Positions 51,450 through 57,882 of a stretch of DNA of 64,000 nt are shown one piece after another. This DNA comes from Lysobacter sp. yr284 (GTDB taxonomy: Bacteria; Pseudomonadota; Gammaproteobacteria; Xanthomonadales; Xanthomonadaceae), in assembly GCF_900107375.1 (NCBI RefSeq), contig NZ_FNPT01000012.1:62001-126000 (forward strand), read 5' to 3'. The translations under genes and the position numbers were made by a program. The notes beneath the pieces are model-generated. The model was given only the letters and a program-made list of their open reading frames with translations. It ran no database searches and was not told where the DNA came from. The stretch's first letter is position 1. Every line of letters starts with the position of its first letter.

Positions 51450-51474
51450 CCCGGCGCGACCGCGCGCCGGGTTT
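51450..51474. terminator. Terminator between convergent genes
   Basis: CCCGGCGCG-ACCG-CGCGCCGGG followed by TTTC on the plus strand. It lies exactly between the beta-lactamase-like gene and rtcR, and overlaps the rtcR stop codon region. Confidence 0.6.
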
Positions 51475-53063
51475 CAGCCCGCGCGCACGCGCTCCCAGTC
51501 CAGGCCGAAGCGGGCCAGGTATTTGCGCAGCCGGTCGGCGTCGTTGCTGCTGGCCTTGCTCGCGCGCGAGACCGCGAACAACTCGCGGCCGGCCTGCGAC
51601 AGGCTCTTGCTGCGCCGGCACACGCCCAGCACATCGTCCAGTTGGACCCGGTCGAAGCGGTCCAGTTGCGCCGCCGCCTGCGCGCCGAGCAGTTGGTCCA
51701 ATGCCGAGACCGCGTGCGCGCCGTGCCACTGCGCGCGCAGCCGGCCGATCTCTTCCTCGACCAGGTCGGCGCGGATGCGCCCGCCCTCGGCCAGCGTCGC
51801 CAGCCGCATCACCGATGCGCCCAGGTCGCGGAAATTGCCGCTCCAGCGGGCCTCGCCGCTGAGGGCGAAGGCGAGGTAGCGCTCGCGCGCCTCGCGGTTG
51901 AAGGTCACCCGCTGGTGGTTCTCGCGCGAGTGCCGCTCCAGTTCGAACTCCAGGTTCGGCTCGATGTCCTCGGCGCGCTCGGCCAGCCCCGGCAGGCGGT
52001 AGGTCCATAGATTCAGGCGCGCCAGCAGGTCCTCGCGGAAGCGCCCTTCCAGCACGCTGGCCTGCAGGTCGCGGTTGGTGCCGGCGATGAGCTGGAAATC
52101 GCTCTCCACTTCCTTGTCGCCGCCGACCGGCAGGAAGCGCTTTTCCTCCAGCGCGCGCAGCAGCATCGCCTGTTCGTCCAGGCCCAGTTCGCCGATCTCG
52201 TCGAGGAACAGCAGGCCCTGGTGGGCCGAACGCAGCAGGCCGGCGCGGTCGGCCGCGGCGCCGGTGTAGGCGCCCTTGATATGGCCGAACAAGGTGCTCA
52301 TCGCGCCGTCGCCGCGCAGGGTCGCGCAATTGACCTCGACGAAGCGGCCCGGCAGCTGGTGTTTCTGCTTCTTCAGGTCGAACACGCGCCGCGCCAGCTG
52401 GCTCTTGCCGGCGCCGGTCGGGCCCATCAGCAGCATCGGCGACTTCGAGCGCGTGGCCACCGTCTCGATCTGCTCGATCATGCGGTTGAATGCCGGGTTG
52501 CGCGTGGCGATGCCGCTCTTGAGCAGGTCGCGGTCGTGCAGGCGCTGCTCGGCGAAGCGCTGGGCGATGCGGTCGTAGCGCGACAGGTCCAGGTCGATGA
52601 CCGCGTAGCTGCCCGGCGAGCGGCCGTCCTGCTTGCGCGGCGGCGCGGTCTGCAGCAGCCGGCCGGGGAACAGCCGGCTCTCGGCCAGCAGGAACCAGCA
52701 GATCTGCGAGACGTGGGTGCCGGTGGTGATGTGGACGTAGTAGTCCTCCTCGTCCGGGCGGAAGTCGTAGCCGCGGACGAAGTCGTCGAGCACGCCGTAG
52801 ACCGCCTCGAAGTCCCAGGGATCGCTGAGGTAGAGGTCGTGGCGGCGGATGTCGCTTTCCGGCGAGACCTGGGCGAGATCGGCGGCGACCTGCCCGGCGA
52901 GCCGGGCGAAGCGGCGTTCGTCGGCGAGCAGCTCCATGCGGTCGAGCAGGAAATCCTCGTGCATGCCCAGCGAGACGGTCGGCCGCCACTTCTCCCAGCG
53001 GCCGGCGCCGGAGGCGGCGTCGAGCTGGGTGCCGAGCATGCCGATCACGACCTGGCGCTTCAT
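51474..53063 (-). CDS. rtcR: RtcR, sigma-54-dependent activator of the RNA repair operon
   Basis: About 529 residues, the usual length. N-terminal CARF-type sensor (VVIGMLGTQLD, YYVHITTGTHVSQICWFLLAE). Central AAA+ domain with Walker A GPTGAGKS, sigma-54 contact loop GAYTGA (GAFTGA variant) and Walker B FLDEIGEL. C-terminal helix-turn-helix (LSQAGRELFAVSRAS). The sensor is thought to respond to damaged-RNA-derived ligands; activation lets sigma-54 polymerase start the divergent rsr-rtcB-rtcA genes. The divergent control region holds a matching -24/-12 promoter. Confidence 0.95.
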   Translation of the reverse strand: MKRQVVIGMLGTQLDAASGAGRWEKWRPTVSLGMHEDFLLDRMELLADERRFARLAGQVAADLAQVSPESDIRRHDLYLSDPWDFEAVYGVLDDFVRGYDFRPDEEDYYVHITTGTHVSQICWFLLAESRLFPGRLLQTAPPRKQDGRSPGSYAVIDLDLSRYDRIAQRFAEQRLHDRDLLKSGIATRNPAFNRMIEQIETVATRSKSPMLLMGPTGAGKSQLARRVFDLKKQKHQLPGRFVEVNCATLRGDGAMSTLFGHIKGAYTGAAADRAGLLRSAHQGLLFLDEIGELGLDEQAMLLRALEEKRFLPVGGDKEVESDFQLIAGTNRDLQASVLEGRFREDLLARLNLWTYRLPGLAERAEDIEPNLEFELERHSRENHQRVTFNREARERYLAFALSGEARWSGNFRDLGASVMRLATLAEGGRIRADLVEEEIGRLRAQWHGAHAVSALDQLLGAQAAAQLDRFDRVQLDDVLGVCRRSKSLSQAGRELFAVSRASKASSNDADRLRKYLARFGLDWERVRAG

Positions 53064-53075
53064 CTGGCTATCCGT

Positions 53076-53097
53076 TTGGATAAAAATTTATATCCAA
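53076..53097. promoter_or_regulatory. Candidate RtcR upstream activating sequence
   Basis: TTGGATA (53076-53082) and TATCCAA (53091-53097) are perfect inverted arms around an A/T-only 8-base centre. An additional TATCC (53069-53073) gives a second nested dyad, TATCC-GTTT-GGATA. It lies about 100 bases upstream of the sigma-54 promoter and just upstream of rtcR's own start, so it may also set autoregulation. Confidence 0.65.
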
Positions 53098-53160
53098 GTA
53101 TAGAAACAGGCGGGAGCCGTTGGCGAGCATGGACCGCCGAATCTGACCGGAAATGTTTTG

Positions 53161-53173
53161 AATCAATAACTTG
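53161..53173 (+). promoter_or_regulatory. IHF binding site
   Basis: AATCAATAACTTG matches the IHF consensus WATCAANNNNTTR exactly. It lies between the proposed activator site and the -24/-12 promoter, where DNA bending would bring RtcR to sigma-54 polymerase. Confidence 0.7.
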
Positions 53174-53191
53174 GATGGCGGATCGGAAAGT

Positions 53192-53206
53192 TGGCACGGC
53201 TATTGC
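53192..53206 (+). promoter_or_regulatory. Sigma-54 (-24/-12) promoter of rsr-rtcB-rtcA
   Basis: TGGCACGGCTATTGC has the GG and GC doublets with the required 10-base spacing. It is 36 bases upstream of the rsr start and oriented toward it. This agrees with the sigma-54 activator encoded divergently. Confidence 0.92.
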
Positions 53207-53242
53207 GTTAGTCCTGGCAAGTCCCGAACCAGGAATGCCCCG

Positions 53243-54793
53243 ATGGCCAACACTTCGCTCTTCGCCTCCCTGCGCAGCCGCCTGGCTCTGGCGGCGAGCG
53301 TGCGCAACGAGGCCGGCGGCCTGGCCTACGCCCGCCGCCCCGAGTCGGCGCTGGCGCTGTACGCGGCCACCGGTTGCTTGAACGGCACCTTCTACGCCAG
53401 CGCCGACGAGCAGCTCGATTACGCGCTCCAGCTCAGCGCCGCGGTCGACGCCGGCTTCGTCGCCAAGACCGCGATCTACGCCCGCCAGCGCGGCCACATG
53501 AAGGACATGCCGGCGCTGTTGCTGGCCAGCCTGAGCCTGCGCGACGGCGAGTCGATGGAGCGCGCGTTCGGCCGGGTGATCGACAACGGCCGCATGCTGC
53601 GCAACTTCGTGCAGATCCTGCGCAGCGGCCGGGTCGGCCGCCGTTCGCTGGGCTCGCGGCCGAAGCGGCTGGTGCGGCAGTGGATCGAGAACGCCACGGT
53701 CGAGCAGTTGCTGGCCGCGGCGATCGGCAACGATCCCTCGCTCGCCGACGTGATCAAGATGGTCCGGCCGAAGCCGGCCGACGCGCAGCGCGCCGCGCTG
53801 TACGCCTGGCTGATCGGCAAGCCCTGCGACGAGTCGGCGTTGCCGCGCCCGGTGCGCGAGTACGAGGCGTTCAAGCGCGATCCGTCCGGGCCGCTGCCGA
53901 AGCTGCCGTTCCAGTACTTCAGCTCGCTGCCGCTGAGTCCGGCGCAGTGGGCGCAGCTGGCGCGCGGCATGTCGTGGCAGAGCCTGCGCATGAACCTCAA
54001 CACCTTGCAGCGCAACGGCGTGTTCGCCGATCCGGCGATGGTGTACGAGGCGGTGGCGCGGTTGACCGACGCCGAAGCGATCGGCCGGGCGCGGGTGTTC
54101 CCGTACCAGCTGATGAGCGCCTACAGCGCCGGCGACGGATTGCCGGCGCCGATCCTGGCGGCCTTGCAGGACGCGATGGAGATCGCGACCCGGCAGGTGC
54201 CGACGCTGGAAGGCGAGGTGGTGGTGGCGGTGGACGTGTCCGGCTCGATGGGCTCGCCCGTCACCGGTTACCGCCCCGGCGCGACCAGCAAGGTGCGTTG
54301 CGTGGACGTGGCGGCGTTGATCGCCGCGTGCATCCAGCGCAACCGCCCCGGGGCGCGGGTGTTGCCGTTCGACACCGAGGTGCGGTCGCTGCGCTTGAAC
54401 CCGCGCGACAGCGTCATGACCCAGGCCGGCCAGCTCGCCGCGTTGTGCGGCGGCGGCACCTGCGTCAGCGCGCCGTTCGCAGAGTTGAACCGGACCAAGG
54501 CCCAGGTCGACCTGATGGTGCTGGTGTCCGACAACGAGAGCTGGCGCGACACCCGCCGCGGCGGCGCGACCTCGACCATGCGCGAGTGGGCGCAGATCAA
54601 GGCGCGCAACCCGCAGGCGCGGCTGGTCTGCATCGACCTGCAGCCGGTGGCGACCGCGCAGACCGTGGAATCGGCCGACGTCCTGCACGTCGGCGGCTTC
54701 AGCGACGCGGTGTTCGACCTGATCGCGGTGTTCGCCGCGCAGGGCGGCGACAGCGCGCGCTGGGCCGAGCGGATCGGATCGGTTCCGTTGTGA
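53243..54793 (+). CDS. rsr: Rsr, Ro60-like TROVE-domain RNA-binding protein
   Basis: About 516 residues. The HEAT-repeat TROVE ring (KTAIYARQRGHMKDMPALLL, VIDNGRMLRNFVQILRSGR, ALYAWLIGKPCDE, SWQSLRMNLNTLQRNGVF) is followed by a von Willebrand A domain with the metal-site motif VAVDVSGSMGSPV near residue 331. Ro60 homologues bind misfolded RNAs in the ring and Y RNAs on its rim, and work with nucleases in RNA quality control. First gene after the sigma-54 promoter. It is followed by non-coding RNA elements, as in Salmonella, where Y RNAs lie near rsr. Confidence 0.95.
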   Translation: MANTSLFASLRSRLALAASVRNEAGGLAYARRPESALALYAATGCLNGTFYASADEQLDYALQLSAAVDAGFVAKTAIYARQRGHMKDMPALLLASLSLRDGESMERAFGRVIDNGRMLRNFVQILRSGRVGRRSLGSRPKRLVRQWIENATVEQLLAAAIGNDPSLADVIKMVRPKPADAQRAALYAWLIGKPCDESALPRPVREYEAFKRDPSGPLPKLPFQYFSSLPLSPAQWAQLARGMSWQSLRMNLNTLQRNGVFADPAMVYEAVARLTDAEAIGRARVFPYQLMSAYSAGDGLPAPILAALQDAMEIATRQVPTLEGEVVVAVDVSGSMGSPVTGYRPGATSKVRCVDVAALIAACIQRNRPGARVLPFDTEVRSLRLNPRDSVMTQAGQLAALCGGGTCVSAPFAELNRTKAQVDLMVLVSDNESWRDTRRGGATSTMREWAQIKARNPQARLVCIDLQPVATAQTVESADVLHVGGFSDAVFDLIAVFAAQGGDSARWAERIGSVPL

Positions 54794-54975
54794 GGCAGGG
54801 CTGCCGAGCAGCGACCAGCAGCGACAGGGAACGTCGCCGCAGCGGCGCAAGGACGCGCCGCGACGCGGAGGCACGGATCGCCTCCGCGCGGCGGGCCAGG
54901 ACGGCCCGCCGGCCGCACGCGCCAGGAGGTGCGGGGCGGCGCAGGGAAGACGCCGGCGGGCGAGGGCCCGCCGGC
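54794..54975 (+). ncRNA. GC-rich hairpin array with GGA loops (CsrA/RsmA-site-like)
   Basis: Directly after the rsr stop comes a chain of hairpins. Six in a row carry GGA in the loop: GCGAC-AGGGAAC-GTCGC (54821), CGGCGC-AAGGAC-GCGCCG (54843), GCGGAGGC-ACGGATC-GCCTCCGC (54865), GGCGGGCC-AGGAC-GGCCCGCC (54890), CGCGCC-AGGA-GGTGCG (54918) and GGCG-CAGGGAAGA-CGCC (54938). A ten-pair stem with GAGG loop follows at 54952. Loops of the ANGGAN kind at the tip of a stem are the known CsrA/RsmA recognition form, and arrays of them are typical of CsrB/RsmZ sponge RNAs. It may be a 3' untranslated part of the rsr transcript or a separate RNA. Function is inferred. Confidence 0.6.
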
Positions 54976-54988
54976 CCGGGTTGGACGG

Positions 54989-55126
54989 CCGATGCATCGC
55001 GAATGCTGGCGGAACTACATCGTTAATGTCCGGGTCGCGGGTTCGAGTCCCGCCCGCCGCAAGGCGGTAGCTCAGTGGGTAGAGCAGGAACGTTCCGTCG
55101 CCACTGGTCTCGATGTGTCGGTTTTT
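54989..55126 (+). ncRNA. Y RNA 1 (YrlA-like) with permuted tRNA-like module
   Basis: Terminal stem CCGATGCATCG / CGATGTGTCGG (11 pairs, two wobble) is followed by TTTTT. Inside it is a Ro-binding-type stem TGGC-GGAAC / GTTCC-GTC-GCCA with a three-base bulge. The interior holds, in this order, a T-arm GCGGG-TTCGAGT-CCCGC, a stem CCGCC-GCAA-GGCGG capped by a GNRA loop, and a D-arm GCTC-AGTGGGTA-GAGC. The order is that of a circularly permuted tRNA with the Y stem where the anticodon arm would be, as described for bacterial YrlA. No tRNA gene can be read here because the acceptor ends are joined. Confidence 0.85.
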
Positions 55127-55143
55127 GATATTCGGTTGTTTAC

Positions 55144-55297
55144 GCGGTCGTCCGGCGAATGCCGGTGGAACTACACCCGATCCCTGCGGTCGCGGGTTCG
55201 ACTCCCGCCCGTCACGGACTGTAACGACGGTAGCTCAGTGGCAGAGCACAGGGCAAAACGTTCCACCACCACTGGTCGCAGGACGGCCGCACCTTTT
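55144..55297 (+). ncRNA. Y RNA 2 (YrlA-like) with permuted tRNA-like module
   Basis: Terminal stem GCGGTCGTCC / GGACGGCCGC (one wobble), followed by ACCTTTT. Then GCGA/TCGC, CCGG/CTGG and TGGAAC/GTTCCA. A junction stem CCCTG/CAGGG leads to a T-arm GCGGG-TTCGACT-CCCGC, a stem CCGTC/GACGG closed by a 12-base loop, and a D-arm GCTC-AGTGGCA-GAGC. The 5' block GCGAATGC...GGAACTACA is shared with Y RNA 1 at an offset of exactly 156 bases. Confidence 0.85.
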
Positions 55298-55304
55298 GGC
55301 GCCT

Positions 55305-55376
55305 CGCACGGCGAATGCCTGGCGGACTACACAAACCTCATAAATTTGAACGTCCGTCAAAACCCTCGTCGTCGCG
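55305..55376 (+). ncRNA. Short Y-RNA-like element without tRNA-like module
   Basis: A third copy of GCGAATGC...GGCGGACTACA, again exactly 156 bases after the previous one. It folds as CGC-ACGGCGA with TCGTCGT-(C)-GCG and GGCGGAC with GTCCGTC (one wobble), closed by a loop containing CAAA...TTTG. The whole tRNA-like part is missing. Either a minimal Y RNA or a decaying copy in the rtcB leader. Confidence 0.6.
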
Positions 55377-55512
55377 CGAAGCGTTTTCCGTTTGCGCAGC
55401 AACGCCGACCCGGCGCATGCGCCGGCCGCCAATCGCGCAACATCGTTTGAATTCGATCTCACCGGCTCGCACGAGCCACGGGCACGAAGCCCGATCAGCA
55501 GGAGCCGCACCC

Positions 55513-56748
55513 ATGAACGCCAATGCCAACGCCCACTACGACGTCATCCACGACCCGGGCTCGGTGCCGATCAAGCACTGGACCCGCGGCGTGCCGCTGG
55601 AAGACGAAGCGCGCCGCCAGCTGCGCAACATCGCCAAGCTGCCGTTCGTGCACCGCTGGATCGCGGTGATGCCCGACGTGCACCTGGGCAAGGGCGCGAC
55701 CGTGGGTTCGGTGGTGCCGACCCTGGGCGCGATCGTGCCGGCCGCGGTCGGCGTGGACATCGGCTGCGGCATGATCGCGGTGCGCACCACCCTGGTGGCG
55801 AGCGACTTGCCGGACCAGCTCGGCCCGCTGCGCGCGGCGATCGAGAAAGCCGTGCCGCACGGCCGCACCGTCGGCCGCGGGCTGCGCGACAAGGGCGCGT
55901 GGGCCAACCCGCCGGCGGCGTCGCTTGAGGCCTGGGAGCGCTTGCACGAGGGGTTCGACCGCATCGTCGCCAAGCATCCCAAGCTCGAGCGCAGCAACCA
56001 CTTGAACCACCTGGGTACCCTGGGCACCGGCAACCACTTCGTCGAGGTCTGTCTGGACGAGGAACAGCGCGTGTGGTTCATGCTGCACTCGGGTTCGCGC
56101 GGCGTCGGCAACGCCATCGGCAGCCACTTCATCGAACTGGCCAAGCAGGACATGCGCCGCTGGATGATCAACCTGCCGGACCAGGACCTGGCCTATCTGC
56201 CCGAAGGCAGCGACCATTACGCCGACTATGTGTTCGCGGTGGACTGGGCGCAGCGGTTCGCGCGCGACAACCGCGAGATCATGATGCGTCACGTCGTGGA
56301 CGCGGCGCGCGCGGTCCTCGCCAAGCCGTTCCAGGCCCAGGCCGAGGCGGTCAACTGCCATCACAACTACGTCAACCGCGAGCATCACTTCGGCAAGGAC
56401 GTGCTGGTGACGCGCAAGGGCGCGGTGAGCGCGCGCAAGGGCGAGCTGGGCATCATCCCGGGCAGCATGGGCGCCAAGAGCTTCATCGTGCGCGGCCTCG
56501 GCAACGCCGACAGCTTCCATAGCTGCAGCCATGGCGCCGGCCGGGTGATGAGTCGCACCGAGGCCAAGAAGCGCATCAGCCTGGAAGAGCACGCCCGTGC
56601 CACCGCGCACGTGGAATGCCGCAAGGACGCCGACGTGGTCGACGAGTCGCCGGCCGCGTACAAGCCGATCGATGCGGTCATGGCCGCGCAGAGCGACTTG
56701 GTCGAGATCGTGCATACCCTGCGCCAGGTCGTGTGCGTGAAGGGTTGA
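55513..56748 (+). CDS. rtcB: RtcB, 3'-phosphate/2',3'-cyclic phosphate to 5'-OH RNA ligase
   Basis: About 411 residues, usual length for the E. coli-type branch. Metal and GTP-site blocks: MPDVHLGKGATVGSV, VGVDIGCGMIAVRT, GTLGTGNHFVEV, HSGSRGVGN, NCHHNYVNREHHFG and the guanylylated-His region FHSCSHGAGRVMSR. It seals broken tRNA or rRNA halves with GTP and Mn2+. GGAG precedes the ATG. It lies downstream of the Y-RNA cluster, so its transcript from the sigma-54 promoter would carry those elements unless they are processed off. Confidence 0.96.
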   Translation: MNANANAHYDVIHDPGSVPIKHWTRGVPLEDEARRQLRNIAKLPFVHRWIAVMPDVHLGKGATVGSVVPTLGAIVPAAVGVDIGCGMIAVRTTLVASDLPDQLGPLRAAIEKAVPHGRTVGRGLRDKGAWANPPAASLEAWERLHEGFDRIVAKHPKLERSNHLNHLGTLGTGNHFVEVCLDEEQRVWFMLHSGSRGVGNAIGSHFIELAKQDMRRWMINLPDQDLAYLPEGSDHYADYVFAVDWAQRFARDNREIMMRHVVDAARAVLAKPFQAQAEAVNCHHNYVNREHHFGKDVLVTRKGAVSARKGELGIIPGSMGAKSFIVRGLGNADSFHSCSHGAGRVMSRTEAKKRISLEEHARATAHVECRKDADVVDESPAAYKPIDAVMAAQSDLVEIVHTLRQVVCVKG

Positions 56749-56847: not shown

Positions 56848-57882
56848 ATGGACAAGAAAATGGAATTGATCGAAATCAGCGGCGCGACCGGCGGCGGCCA
56901 GCTGCTGCGCACGGCGCTGGCGCTGAGCCTGTGCACCGGCACCGCGTTCGAGATGCAGCACATCCGCGCCAAGCGCAAGCGCCCGGGCCTGATGCGCCAG
57001 CACCTCACCGCGGTCGGCGCGGCCGCGCAGGTCGGCCGCGCCTATGTCGAAGGCGCGCAGCTCGGCGCGACCACGCTGCGCTTCGTGCCGGGCCAGGTGC
57101 AGCCGGGCCGCTACCGGTTCTCCATCGGCACCGCCGGTTCGGCGACGCTGGTGCTGCAGACCGTGCTGCCGGCGCTGTGGTCCTGCGATGCGGCCTCGGA
57201 GATCGCCGTCGAAGGCGGCACCCACAACCCGCTCGCGCCCAGCGCCGACTTCCTCGCCGAGTGCTACCTGCCGGCGCTGCGCCGGTTCGGCGTGGAAACC
57301 GCGTTCGCGCTGCAACGCCACGGCTTCTTCCCGGCCGGCGGCGGTTGCGTGCAACTGCGCATCGCGCCGGGCGCGGCCTTGCGCGAGGCCGTATTCGACC
57401 GCCGCGATCCGGCGCCGACGCTGGAGGCGACCGCGTTGCTGGCCTCGCTGGCCGATTCGATCGGCCTGCGCGAACTGCAGGCGCTGGCCGAACAGCTCAA
57501 GCTCGCGCCCGGCGCGCTGCACCTGCGCCGCGCGCCGACCGCGCAGAGCCCGGCCAACGTGCTGATGCTGCGGGTGAGCGGCGAAGGCCAGCACACCGAG
57601 CTGTTCGACGCGCTCGGCGAGCGCGGCGTCGGCGCCGAGCGGGTCGCGGCGGGCCTGGCGCGCCGCGTCGGCGAGTACCTGGGCGCGGACGCGGCGGTCG
57701 GCGAGCACCTGTCCGACCAGTTGCTGCTGCCGATGGCGCTGGCCGGCGGCGGCGAGTTCACCACTGCGTTCGTCAGCGATCACCTGTCCAGCAATGCGCG
57801 CTTGATCGAGAAGTTCCTGCCGGTGGAGATCGACTGGGTCCAGCAGGGCAAGCGCTGCTGGCGGGTGACGGTGCGTTCCTGA
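56848..57882 (+). CDS. rtcA: RtcA, RNA 3'-terminal phosphate cyclase
   Basis: About 344 residues. ISGATGGGQLLRTALALSL, RKRPGLMRQHLTAVGAAA, SIGTAGSATLVLQTVLPALW, RHGFFPAGGGCVQL, EHLSDQLLLPMALAGGGEFT and the nucleotidylated His in SDHLSSNARL match the family throughout. It converts RNA 3'-phosphates to 2',3'-cyclic phosphates with ATP, giving ends that RtcB can ligate. The ATG for MDKKMELIEIS was chosen; the ATG four codons later is also possible. A 100-base gap separates it from rtcB. Confidence 0.95.
   Translation: MDKKMELIEISGATGGGQLLRTALALSLCTGTAFEMQHIRAKRKRPGLMRQHLTAVGAAAQVGRAYVEGAQLGATTLRFVPGQVQPGRYRFSIGTAGSATLVLQTVLPALWSCDAASEIAVEGGTHNPLAPSADFLAECYLPALRRFGVETAFALQRHGFFPAGGGCVQLRIAPGAALREAVFDRRDPAPTLEATALLASLADSIGLRELQALAEQLKLAPGALHLRRAPTAQSPANVLMLRVSGEGQHTELFDALGERGVGAERVAAGLARRVGEYLGADAAVGEHLSDQLLLPMALAGGGEFTTAFVSDHLSSNARLIEKFLPVEIDWVQQGKRCWRVTVRS

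Follow-up and report, generated by a model that had tools for sequence, protein, structure and literature searches.

The RNAs CsrB/CsrC and RsmX/RsmY/RsmZ are classically under the control of GacA/BarA-UvrY, and a spacing of 19–27 bases between GGA sites suits the dimer of RsmA/CsrA. RsmU of Xanthomonas, an RsmA-sequestering RNA that comes from an mRNA 3′ untranslated region (UTR), provides a precedent for an RsmA sponge made within an mRNA (PMC7694677). On the side of RNA repair, RtcR is activated by tRNA fragments in Salmonella (PMC7790460), and deletion of rtcB raises the level of RsmA protein in Pseudomonas aeruginosa (PMC8619066).

Here we describe an array of GGA-loop hairpins at positions 54794–54975 of a 64,000-nucleotide stretch of Lysobacter sp. 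yr284 (contig NZ_FNPT01000012.1, positions 62,001–126,000; hereafter the window), where it lies in an RNA-repair operon in the order rtcR (minus strand), sigma-54-type promoter, rsr, hairpin array, two Y RNAs, rtcB and rtcA. The genome has 6.25 Mb and belongs to the genus Lysobacter; L. enzymogenes ATCC 29487 is among the relatives that share this operon. A first-pass annotation had proposed that the array is a CsrA/RsmA sponge. Judged from its sequence and conservation, the array is very probably an RsmA-binding platform when sponge and cis-acting roles are taken jointly. Between these roles we lean slightly to a probable sponge, an RsmA-binding array that RtcR induces as part of the operon RNA.

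Architecture of the array and chance expectation

Minimum free energy (MFE) folding of the ∼180 bases 3′ of rsr gives five GC-rich hairpins whose loops contain GGA, followed by a linker with a further GGA and by a hairpin without GGA, all considered here on the plus strand. H1 (54821–54837) reads GCGAC[AGGGAAC]GTCGC with the loop in brackets and GGA at 54828, and its GGA is found in 10 of 12 array-bearing genomes. H2 (54842–54861), GCGGCGC[AAGGAC]GCGCCGC, presents an ANGGAN hexaloop with GGA at 54851. In H3 (54864–54888), CGCGGAGGC[ACGGATC]GCCTCCGCG, with GGA at 54875, and in H4 (54889–54911), CGGCGGGCC[AGGAC]GGCCCGCCG, with GGA at 54899, two stem pairs each are changed on both sides among relatives. 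H5 (54912–54940) has the inner stem CGCGCC[AGGA]GGUGCG and GGA at 54925; GGA is kept here in 10 of 12 genomes, and the loop is ANGGA in most relatives, with A, C, G or T as N. The single-stranded linker that follows (54941–54950) contains CAGGGA, with GGA at 54945. The GGA of H2, H3, H4 and the linker is present in all 12 genomes. The last hairpin, H7 (54951–54974), GCCGGCGGGC[GAGG]GCCCGCCGGC, lacks GGA and is related to an AATGGG-loop hairpin found after rsr in other Lysobacterales.

Six consecutive GGA-loop hairpins had been annotated. Five of them stand, whereas the sixth (CAGGGAAGA) is an unpaired linker both in the MFE structure and in the RNAalifold consensus; a stem for it can be drawn but would compete with H5 and H7, and we reject it. 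The sites of the array are therefore five hairpin-loop GGAs and one unpaired GGA, four of the six fitting ANGGAN as had been noted, at mutual distances of 19–27 and typically 23–24 bases. This arrangement offers room for about three RsmA dimers per RNA.

The array exceeds chance at this position. The MFE of 54794–54990 is −131 kcal/mol (z = −5.7), and none of 200 dinucleotide shuffles was as stable. The minus strand folds equally well (z = −5.8), so that folding alone does not pick the strand; this is set by the GGA loops, which lie on the strand that carries rsr and rtcB, and by the direction of the operon. GGA occurs in five of the seven MFE loops; in 1000 dinucleotide shuffles the mean was 0.65 and the maximum four, with none at five, and shuffled controls thus fail to give counts similar to the array. 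When eight rsr-bearing relatives were shuffled 150 times each, no shuffle reached the observed GGA-loop count in seven of them, and 1 of 150 did so in G004.

The genome background was sampled as 80 pieces of 20 kb (1.6 Mb) of the same genome on both strands. Hairpins with a GGA loop make up 621 of 13,760 (4.5%) at a stem of at least 6 and 1620 of 35,251 (4.6%) at a stem of at least 5. Three GGA-loop hairpins within 120 nt were found at four places, one of which is the rsmX-like RNA candidate described below; these triples never overlap, so that no run of four exists. This dense-hairpin test misses the array itself, the span of which is slightly above the limit, and nothing is drawn from it. 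We reject chance hairpins on the strength of the shuffles, the genome background and the conservation reported below.

We also considered whether the array is an RNA already held in Rfam, and rejected this since no family matches the array itself: in a search of the window YrlA alone reaches its gathering threshold, no Csr/Rsm family matches 54700–55520 up to an E-value of 5, and the CsrB covariance model has no match in the genome of the window up to an E-value of 1.

Conservation and distribution of the array

The homologous gaps of other Lysobacter genomes carry conserved GGA loops, with GGA retained at 68 of 72 sites in the 12 array-bearing genomes. The base preceding GGA is free to vary (A, C, G or T at H5; A, C or G at H1 and H3; A, C or T at H4; A or G at H2 and in the linker). 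A CA(N)GGA context surrounds 59 of the 68 GGA sites. At H1, H2, H3 and H5, A stands at −2 in 41 of 44 sites, which gives the ANGGA-type context, while at H4 and in the linker (A at −2 in 0 of 12 and 5 of 12, respectively) CAGGA prevails; the exact hexaloop ANGGAN is seen in some hairpins only. Spacing is similarly regular: 28 of the 54 intervals between sites measure 23 or 24 bases (range 19–27). In the MFE structure of the array alone, 62 of the 68 GGA sites are fully unpaired.

Stem pairing was assessed in a hand-made structural alignment of nine genomes, which leans toward its own structure. H1 of G003 has no stem and was dropped from this alignment; it is scored as a miss in the 72-site count. 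Pairing is kept in 404 of 406 cells, two-sided changes occur at 9 of 49 stem pairs, and at all seven pair positions that have been gained or lost both partners came or went together. H1, in which the alignment of one clade is open to argument, holds four of the nine two-sided pairs; the other five fall in H3, H4 and H7. RNAalifold, run on a separate MAFFT alignment without H1, finds two-sided changes at 5 of 43 pairs. The stem structure thus appears to be kept by compensatory change while GGA stays.

Among 20 Lysobacter genomes, rsr is present in nine, and the array lies behind it in all nine. A covariance model (R1), built from nine arrays without H1, gave one match each in 12 of the 20 genomes. 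Three of these (G019, G002 and G001) keep the array and have no rsr match, in the order rtcR, sigma-54 site, array, rtcB, and no Y RNA at the Rfam gathering threshold was found around their array match. All six GGA sites are kept in the three, with a mismatch or bulge in some stems (H3 of G019 and G001; H1 and H5 of G002 and G001), and in G002 and G001 rtcR, the array, rtcB and rtcA stay despite the loss of rsr. In an rtcB tree, in which the deeper branching order is not resolved, G019 is sister to the genome of the window, and G001 groups with G002 in a clade of its own. Since the rsr-less array genomes sit at two places of this tree, the array has outlived rsr at least twice.

Because three genomes keep the array without rsr or Y RNAs, we conclude that it belongs to the RtcR-driven transcript, and dependence on rsr or on Y RNAs is rejected on the same ground. 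Its constant partners are the sigma-54 site, rtcR and rtcB. The annotated place between rsr and the Y RNAs is therefore true of the window but incidental. Traces of rsr can be seen in these genomes. By eye, the apparent first rsr codons are all that remains before the array in G019. In G002 (locus L155) a decayed rsr remnant, with residues 24–69 at 43% identity, lies between the sigma-54 site and the array, and a similar decayed remnant is seen by eye at the same place in G001 (L156).

The array-less Lysobacter genomes differ among themselves. G010, G013, G014 and G018 have only an AATGGG- or AATAGG-loop hairpin upstream of rtcB, without rsr; G007, G008 and G017 have neither the array nor an AATGGG-type hairpin; and G012 has only a second, 64%-identical rtcB.

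A comparison of the gap across genera had also been suggested. Lysobacter keeps the array, but R1 matches none of the other genera of the family: under stricter filters, with which weak matches are lost, 10 of 297 family genomes were matched, all of them Lysobacter, and we reject the array as a family-wide feature. In other Lysobacterales, the majority of rsr loci show just one hairpin, which is free of GGA. Seven of 33 such loci have GGA in the loop of a hairpin no more than 70 bases from the rsr stop, among them those of Stenotrophomonas sp. SY1 (GACGAC[ATGGAA]GTCGTC) and Dyella amyloliquefaciens (CCGCC[ATGGAA]GGCGG). An ancestral single site may have been multiplied in Lysobacter. In loci L068–L121, which come mostly from distant groups such as betaproteobacteria, the 400 bases that follow rsr never hold more than one hairpin with a GGA loop.

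The AATGGG-loop hairpin (variants GATGGG, AATGAG and GATGAG), which is not a GGA site, follows rsr in at least 21 of the 33 other Lysobacterales loci, a lower bound because the scan required perfect stems. None of 492 hairpins with a stem of at least 8 in a 400 kb sample of the genome of the window has an AATGGG-type loop. The 33 loci are L012–L030 and L045–L067, minus eight duplicates of the same contigs and L022, the contig of which equals that of L050 in length; L031 (51% rsr identity) and L085 (a Rhodanobacter metagenome-assembled genome with no GGA loops) stand outside this count.

The operon, CsrA proteins and an rsmX-like RNA candidate

All components of an RtcR-controlled rsr-Y RNA-rtcBA operon (RtcR, sigma-54 promoter, Rsr, Y RNA, RtcB and RtcA) are present in the window. 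The RNA-sensing sigma-54 activator gene rtcR (51474–53063, minus strand; NCBIfam NF038308 RtcR, 816 bits against a cut-off of 650; Pfam RtcR PF06956) is divergent from the operon. A sigma-54-type promoter, TGGCACGGCTATTGC (53192–53206, plus strand), was found by pattern search 51 bases 5′ of rsr. The annotated control of the operon by RtcR is supported by this promoter site in front. The pattern searches used what we take to be the sigma-54 consensus. They placed a site at −50 to −52 of rsr in nine of nine rsr-bearing Lysobacter genomes and upstream of rtcB in 10 rsr-less ones, that is, all except G012.

The remaining features lie on the plus strand. The Ro60-like gene rsr (53243–54793) has Pfam vWA_Ro60 (55.7 bits, cut-off 27.7) and TROVE (24.8 bits, cut-off 23) domains, by which it is named. 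Since its NCBIfam Rsr score of 92.7 bits is far under the equivalog cut-off of 900, its product is a diverged member of the family. Y RNA 1, a YrlA RNA (54996–55117), scores 70.8 bits with Rfam RF02553 (gathering score 69), and the YrlA-like Y RNA 2 (55152–55285) scores 63.6 bits, under the gathering score, with an E-value of 4.6e-14. By eye, a third stretch (GGCGAATGCCTGGCGGACTACA ... GTCCGTC) resembles a Y RNA but has no tRNA-like module; it follows both YrlA copies at ∼55309–55379. In the rsr-rtcB gap of relatives L013 and L014, a small open frame whose product is hydrophobic near the N-terminus apparently lies between the Y RNAs, again by eye. Downstream of the array in the window lie the RNA ligase gene rtcB (55513–56748; Pfam RtcB, 436 bits) and the RNA 3′-phosphate cyclase gene rtcA (56848–57882; NCBIfam, 390 bits, cut-off 352; Pfam RTC).

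A canonical CsrA, which matches solved CsrA-family chains, is encoded in all 20 genomes of the genus (PF02599 above cut-off, 92 bits). This protein, the CsrA/RsmA-type grammar of the sites and the GGA loops, conserved while the stems change in pairs, support part of the annotated interpretation. Site contexts and spacing, as read from the sequence, fit CsrA/RsmA as described in PMC7652899, and the context in the array is close both to the CsrB repeat CAGGA(U/A/C)G and to the consensus from systematic evolution of ligands by exponential enrichment (SELEX) given there. The genome of the window also has a second, diverged CsrA-family gene (L041, G000 C46:8456-8602; 67 bits), and extra CsrA-family copies of 51–66 bits occur in five other genomes of the genus.

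The scan of 1.6 Mb for clusters of GGA hairpins brought up an intergenic rsmX-like candidate with several GGA-loop hairpins (L195:4540-4785; G000 C32, ∼544,540–544,785, plus strand), which may be a free-standing RsmA-sequestering RNA. It ends in a terminator-like hairpin, CGCCGGGGACC[AGGAC]GGTCCCCGGCG, followed by CTTTTGT. By blastn it is present in 5 of 20 Lysobacter genomes, all of the clade of the window; in its last two hairpins GGA is fixed and the preceding base variable, and the T-run is broken up in G005 and missing from G016. The sole Rsm-type Rfam match of the candidate is a sub-threshold one to rsmX (17 bits against a gathering score of 56, E-value 0.72). The candidate shares the grammar of the array, with similarly long GC stems and the same CC[NGGAC]GG loop as H4. 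A palindrome that we take to resemble the GacA box was searched nearby and rejected as a signal: 20 kb held three matches with three mismatches (0.96 expected; 14 of 200 shuffles reach this number), and none lay just upstream of the candidate.

Possible functions of the array and comparison with known systems

If the array is an RsmA sponge, RtcR would sense broken RNA, produced for instance by toxin attack from rivals or by phage, and fire the sigma-54 promoter. Copies of the array would then be made in number within the operon RNA, presumably in sufficient abundance to bind RsmA and pull it off other mRNAs. RNA damage would thereby shift the Rsm regulon, with titration rather than cis control as the probable main effect. 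A fuller scheme, which we hold to be evenly poised between right and wrong, is that of an RNA-damage-inducible sponge: broken-tRNA sensing by RtcR would lead the operon RNA to titrate RsmA and reset secretion, motility and antibiotic programmes during repair by RtcB, a function that would have outlived the Ro60/Y RNA part on two lineages. That the array has been kept in some species which lost the neighbouring genes hints at a direct connection between RNA damage and a control system of the whole cell.

Several observations weigh against this reading. A discrete RNA with its own promoter and terminator is not indicated, as consensus scans of 53000–55600 found no terminator-like site and a sole sigma-70-like site, on the minus strand, and the sigma-54 site lies before rsr; processing of the array out of the operon RNA is possible. 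The stems of the array are mostly 5–11 bp and very stable, and many loops are five or seven rather than six bases long. According to PMC7652899, most SELEX ligands have at most four contiguous pairs, which suggests a possible cost of highly stable structure, and CsrA affinity can drop when the loop has additional bases. In RsmU, altering all four GGA motifs left RsmA binding in place, although the complex looked smaller (PMC7694677). Conservation has gaps as well: G003 and G004 have no GGA in H1, and G003 has lost the H1 stem too; G009 and G015 have none in H5; and 8 of the 20 Lysobacter genomes lack the array. When the array alone is folded, H1 and H3 of G001, H2 of G003 and H1 of G011 refold, and the linker is partly refolded in G003 and G005; H1 and H3 of G001 do form when the flanks are folded too. 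Covariation rests on few independent events because the twelve genomes group in few clades. Finally, all 12 array-bearing genomes have the array upstream of rtcB and in the same orientation, a position that suits cis control equally.

Cis control is the main rival, and we regard it as possible but doubtful. RsmA on the array would here control the operon's own RNA (its stability, processing or Rho termination, or how the outputs of rsr, Y RNA and rtcB are coupled), while the remaining RsmA targets would hardly be affected. Besides the constant position before rtcB, it can draw on the six CsrA sites of the pgaA leader, which act on translation and Rho termination (PMC7652899), and on an RtcB homologue reported among the targets of the Gac/Rsm pathway in Pseudomonas (PMC11888443). 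However, the bases ahead of the rtcB start hold no GGA in 7 of the 12 genomes with the array, and repression of rtcB through a GGA at its ribosome-binding site is rejected since GGA is not conserved there. The array moreover ends ∼540 bases before rtcB in the window, with two Y RNAs between, and ∼85 bases before it in G019, and six sites would exceed the need of simple repression. We consider a sponge likelier than cis control because the sites are many and lie in hairpin loops, their distance to rtcB varies and no conserved GGA stands before the rtcB start. Sponge and cis roles could hold at once.

It is unlikely that the array serves another partner, or is a structural spacer by which parts of the operon RNA are protected or kept apart, with GGA read by something other than RsmA, such as ribosomes via the anti-Shine-Dalgarno sequence or an RNase. 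The very stable GC stems would suit such a role, and the GGA-free H7, with its relatives after rsr in other Lysobacterales and in four rsr-less Lysobacter, indicates that some element there has another role. A spacer has no need of a fixed GGA, yet GGA is the most constant feature of the loops while the preceding base is free; the full AGGAGG is not kept at H5, and the rsmX-like RNA candidate has the same grammar. A neutral origin as GC-rich repeats with incidental GGA loops, spread by duplication of one hairpin, would explain why adjacent hairpins are alike in length and spacing and why both strands fold equally well, but is very improbable given the shuffles, the two-sided stem changes and the retention of the array after loss of rsr and Y RNAs at two places of the tree.

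If true, the sponge reading joins two open questions, the abundant non-coding RNA in RNA-repair operons and the tuning of RsmA in Lysobacter, a genus of biocontrol bacteria. The array offers a direct test of how an RNA-damage signal might act on global gene control, and the genomes that have the array without rsr and Y RNAs are naturally reduced versions for experiment. The first-pass annotation knew of no link between such an array and RNA repair. The literature searched, mostly without subscription papers, gave no account of a GGA array within an rtc operon; a link between rtc and Rsm is, however, in print for Pseudomonas, where RtcB is tied to Gac/Rsm (PMC8619066; PMC11888443), although no RNA of this type was seen in the text available for it. 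In Lysobacter, the coupling would sit in the operon RNA itself.

Compared to the Salmonella rsr-yrlBA-rtcBA operon, the locus has the same RtcR/sigma-54 control, Rsr, Y RNAs, RtcB and RtcA, whereas, in a comparison by text, the available part of the Salmonella description mentions no GGA hairpin array (PMC7790460). In the pgaABCD leader, too, six CsrA sites lie in untranslated RNA ahead of the operon genes, but two of the pgaA sites overlap the Shine-Dalgarno sequence and start codon, unlike the situation before rtcB. RsmU resembles the array as an RsmA-sequestering RNA, cut from an mRNA 3′ UTR in the same bacterial family, whose long form has four GGA motifs. It is set apart by locus and host: its source is the transcript of a predicted ComEA gene, reports of it are confined to Xanthomonas, and the text available gives it no RNA-repair link (PMC7694677). 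With CsrB/CsrC and RsmX/RsmY/RsmZ the array shares several closely spaced GGA sites in hairpin loops and linkers, for which multivalent binding of CsrA/RsmA dimers would be the expected use. Those RNAs are free-standing, with their own promoter and terminator, whereas the array lies inside a protein-coding operon behind an RtcR/sigma-54 site, without a terminator-like site found, and is matched by none of the CsrB/RsmX-type Rfam families. The kind of RNA is thus already known; what is new is its link to RNA repair and its location.
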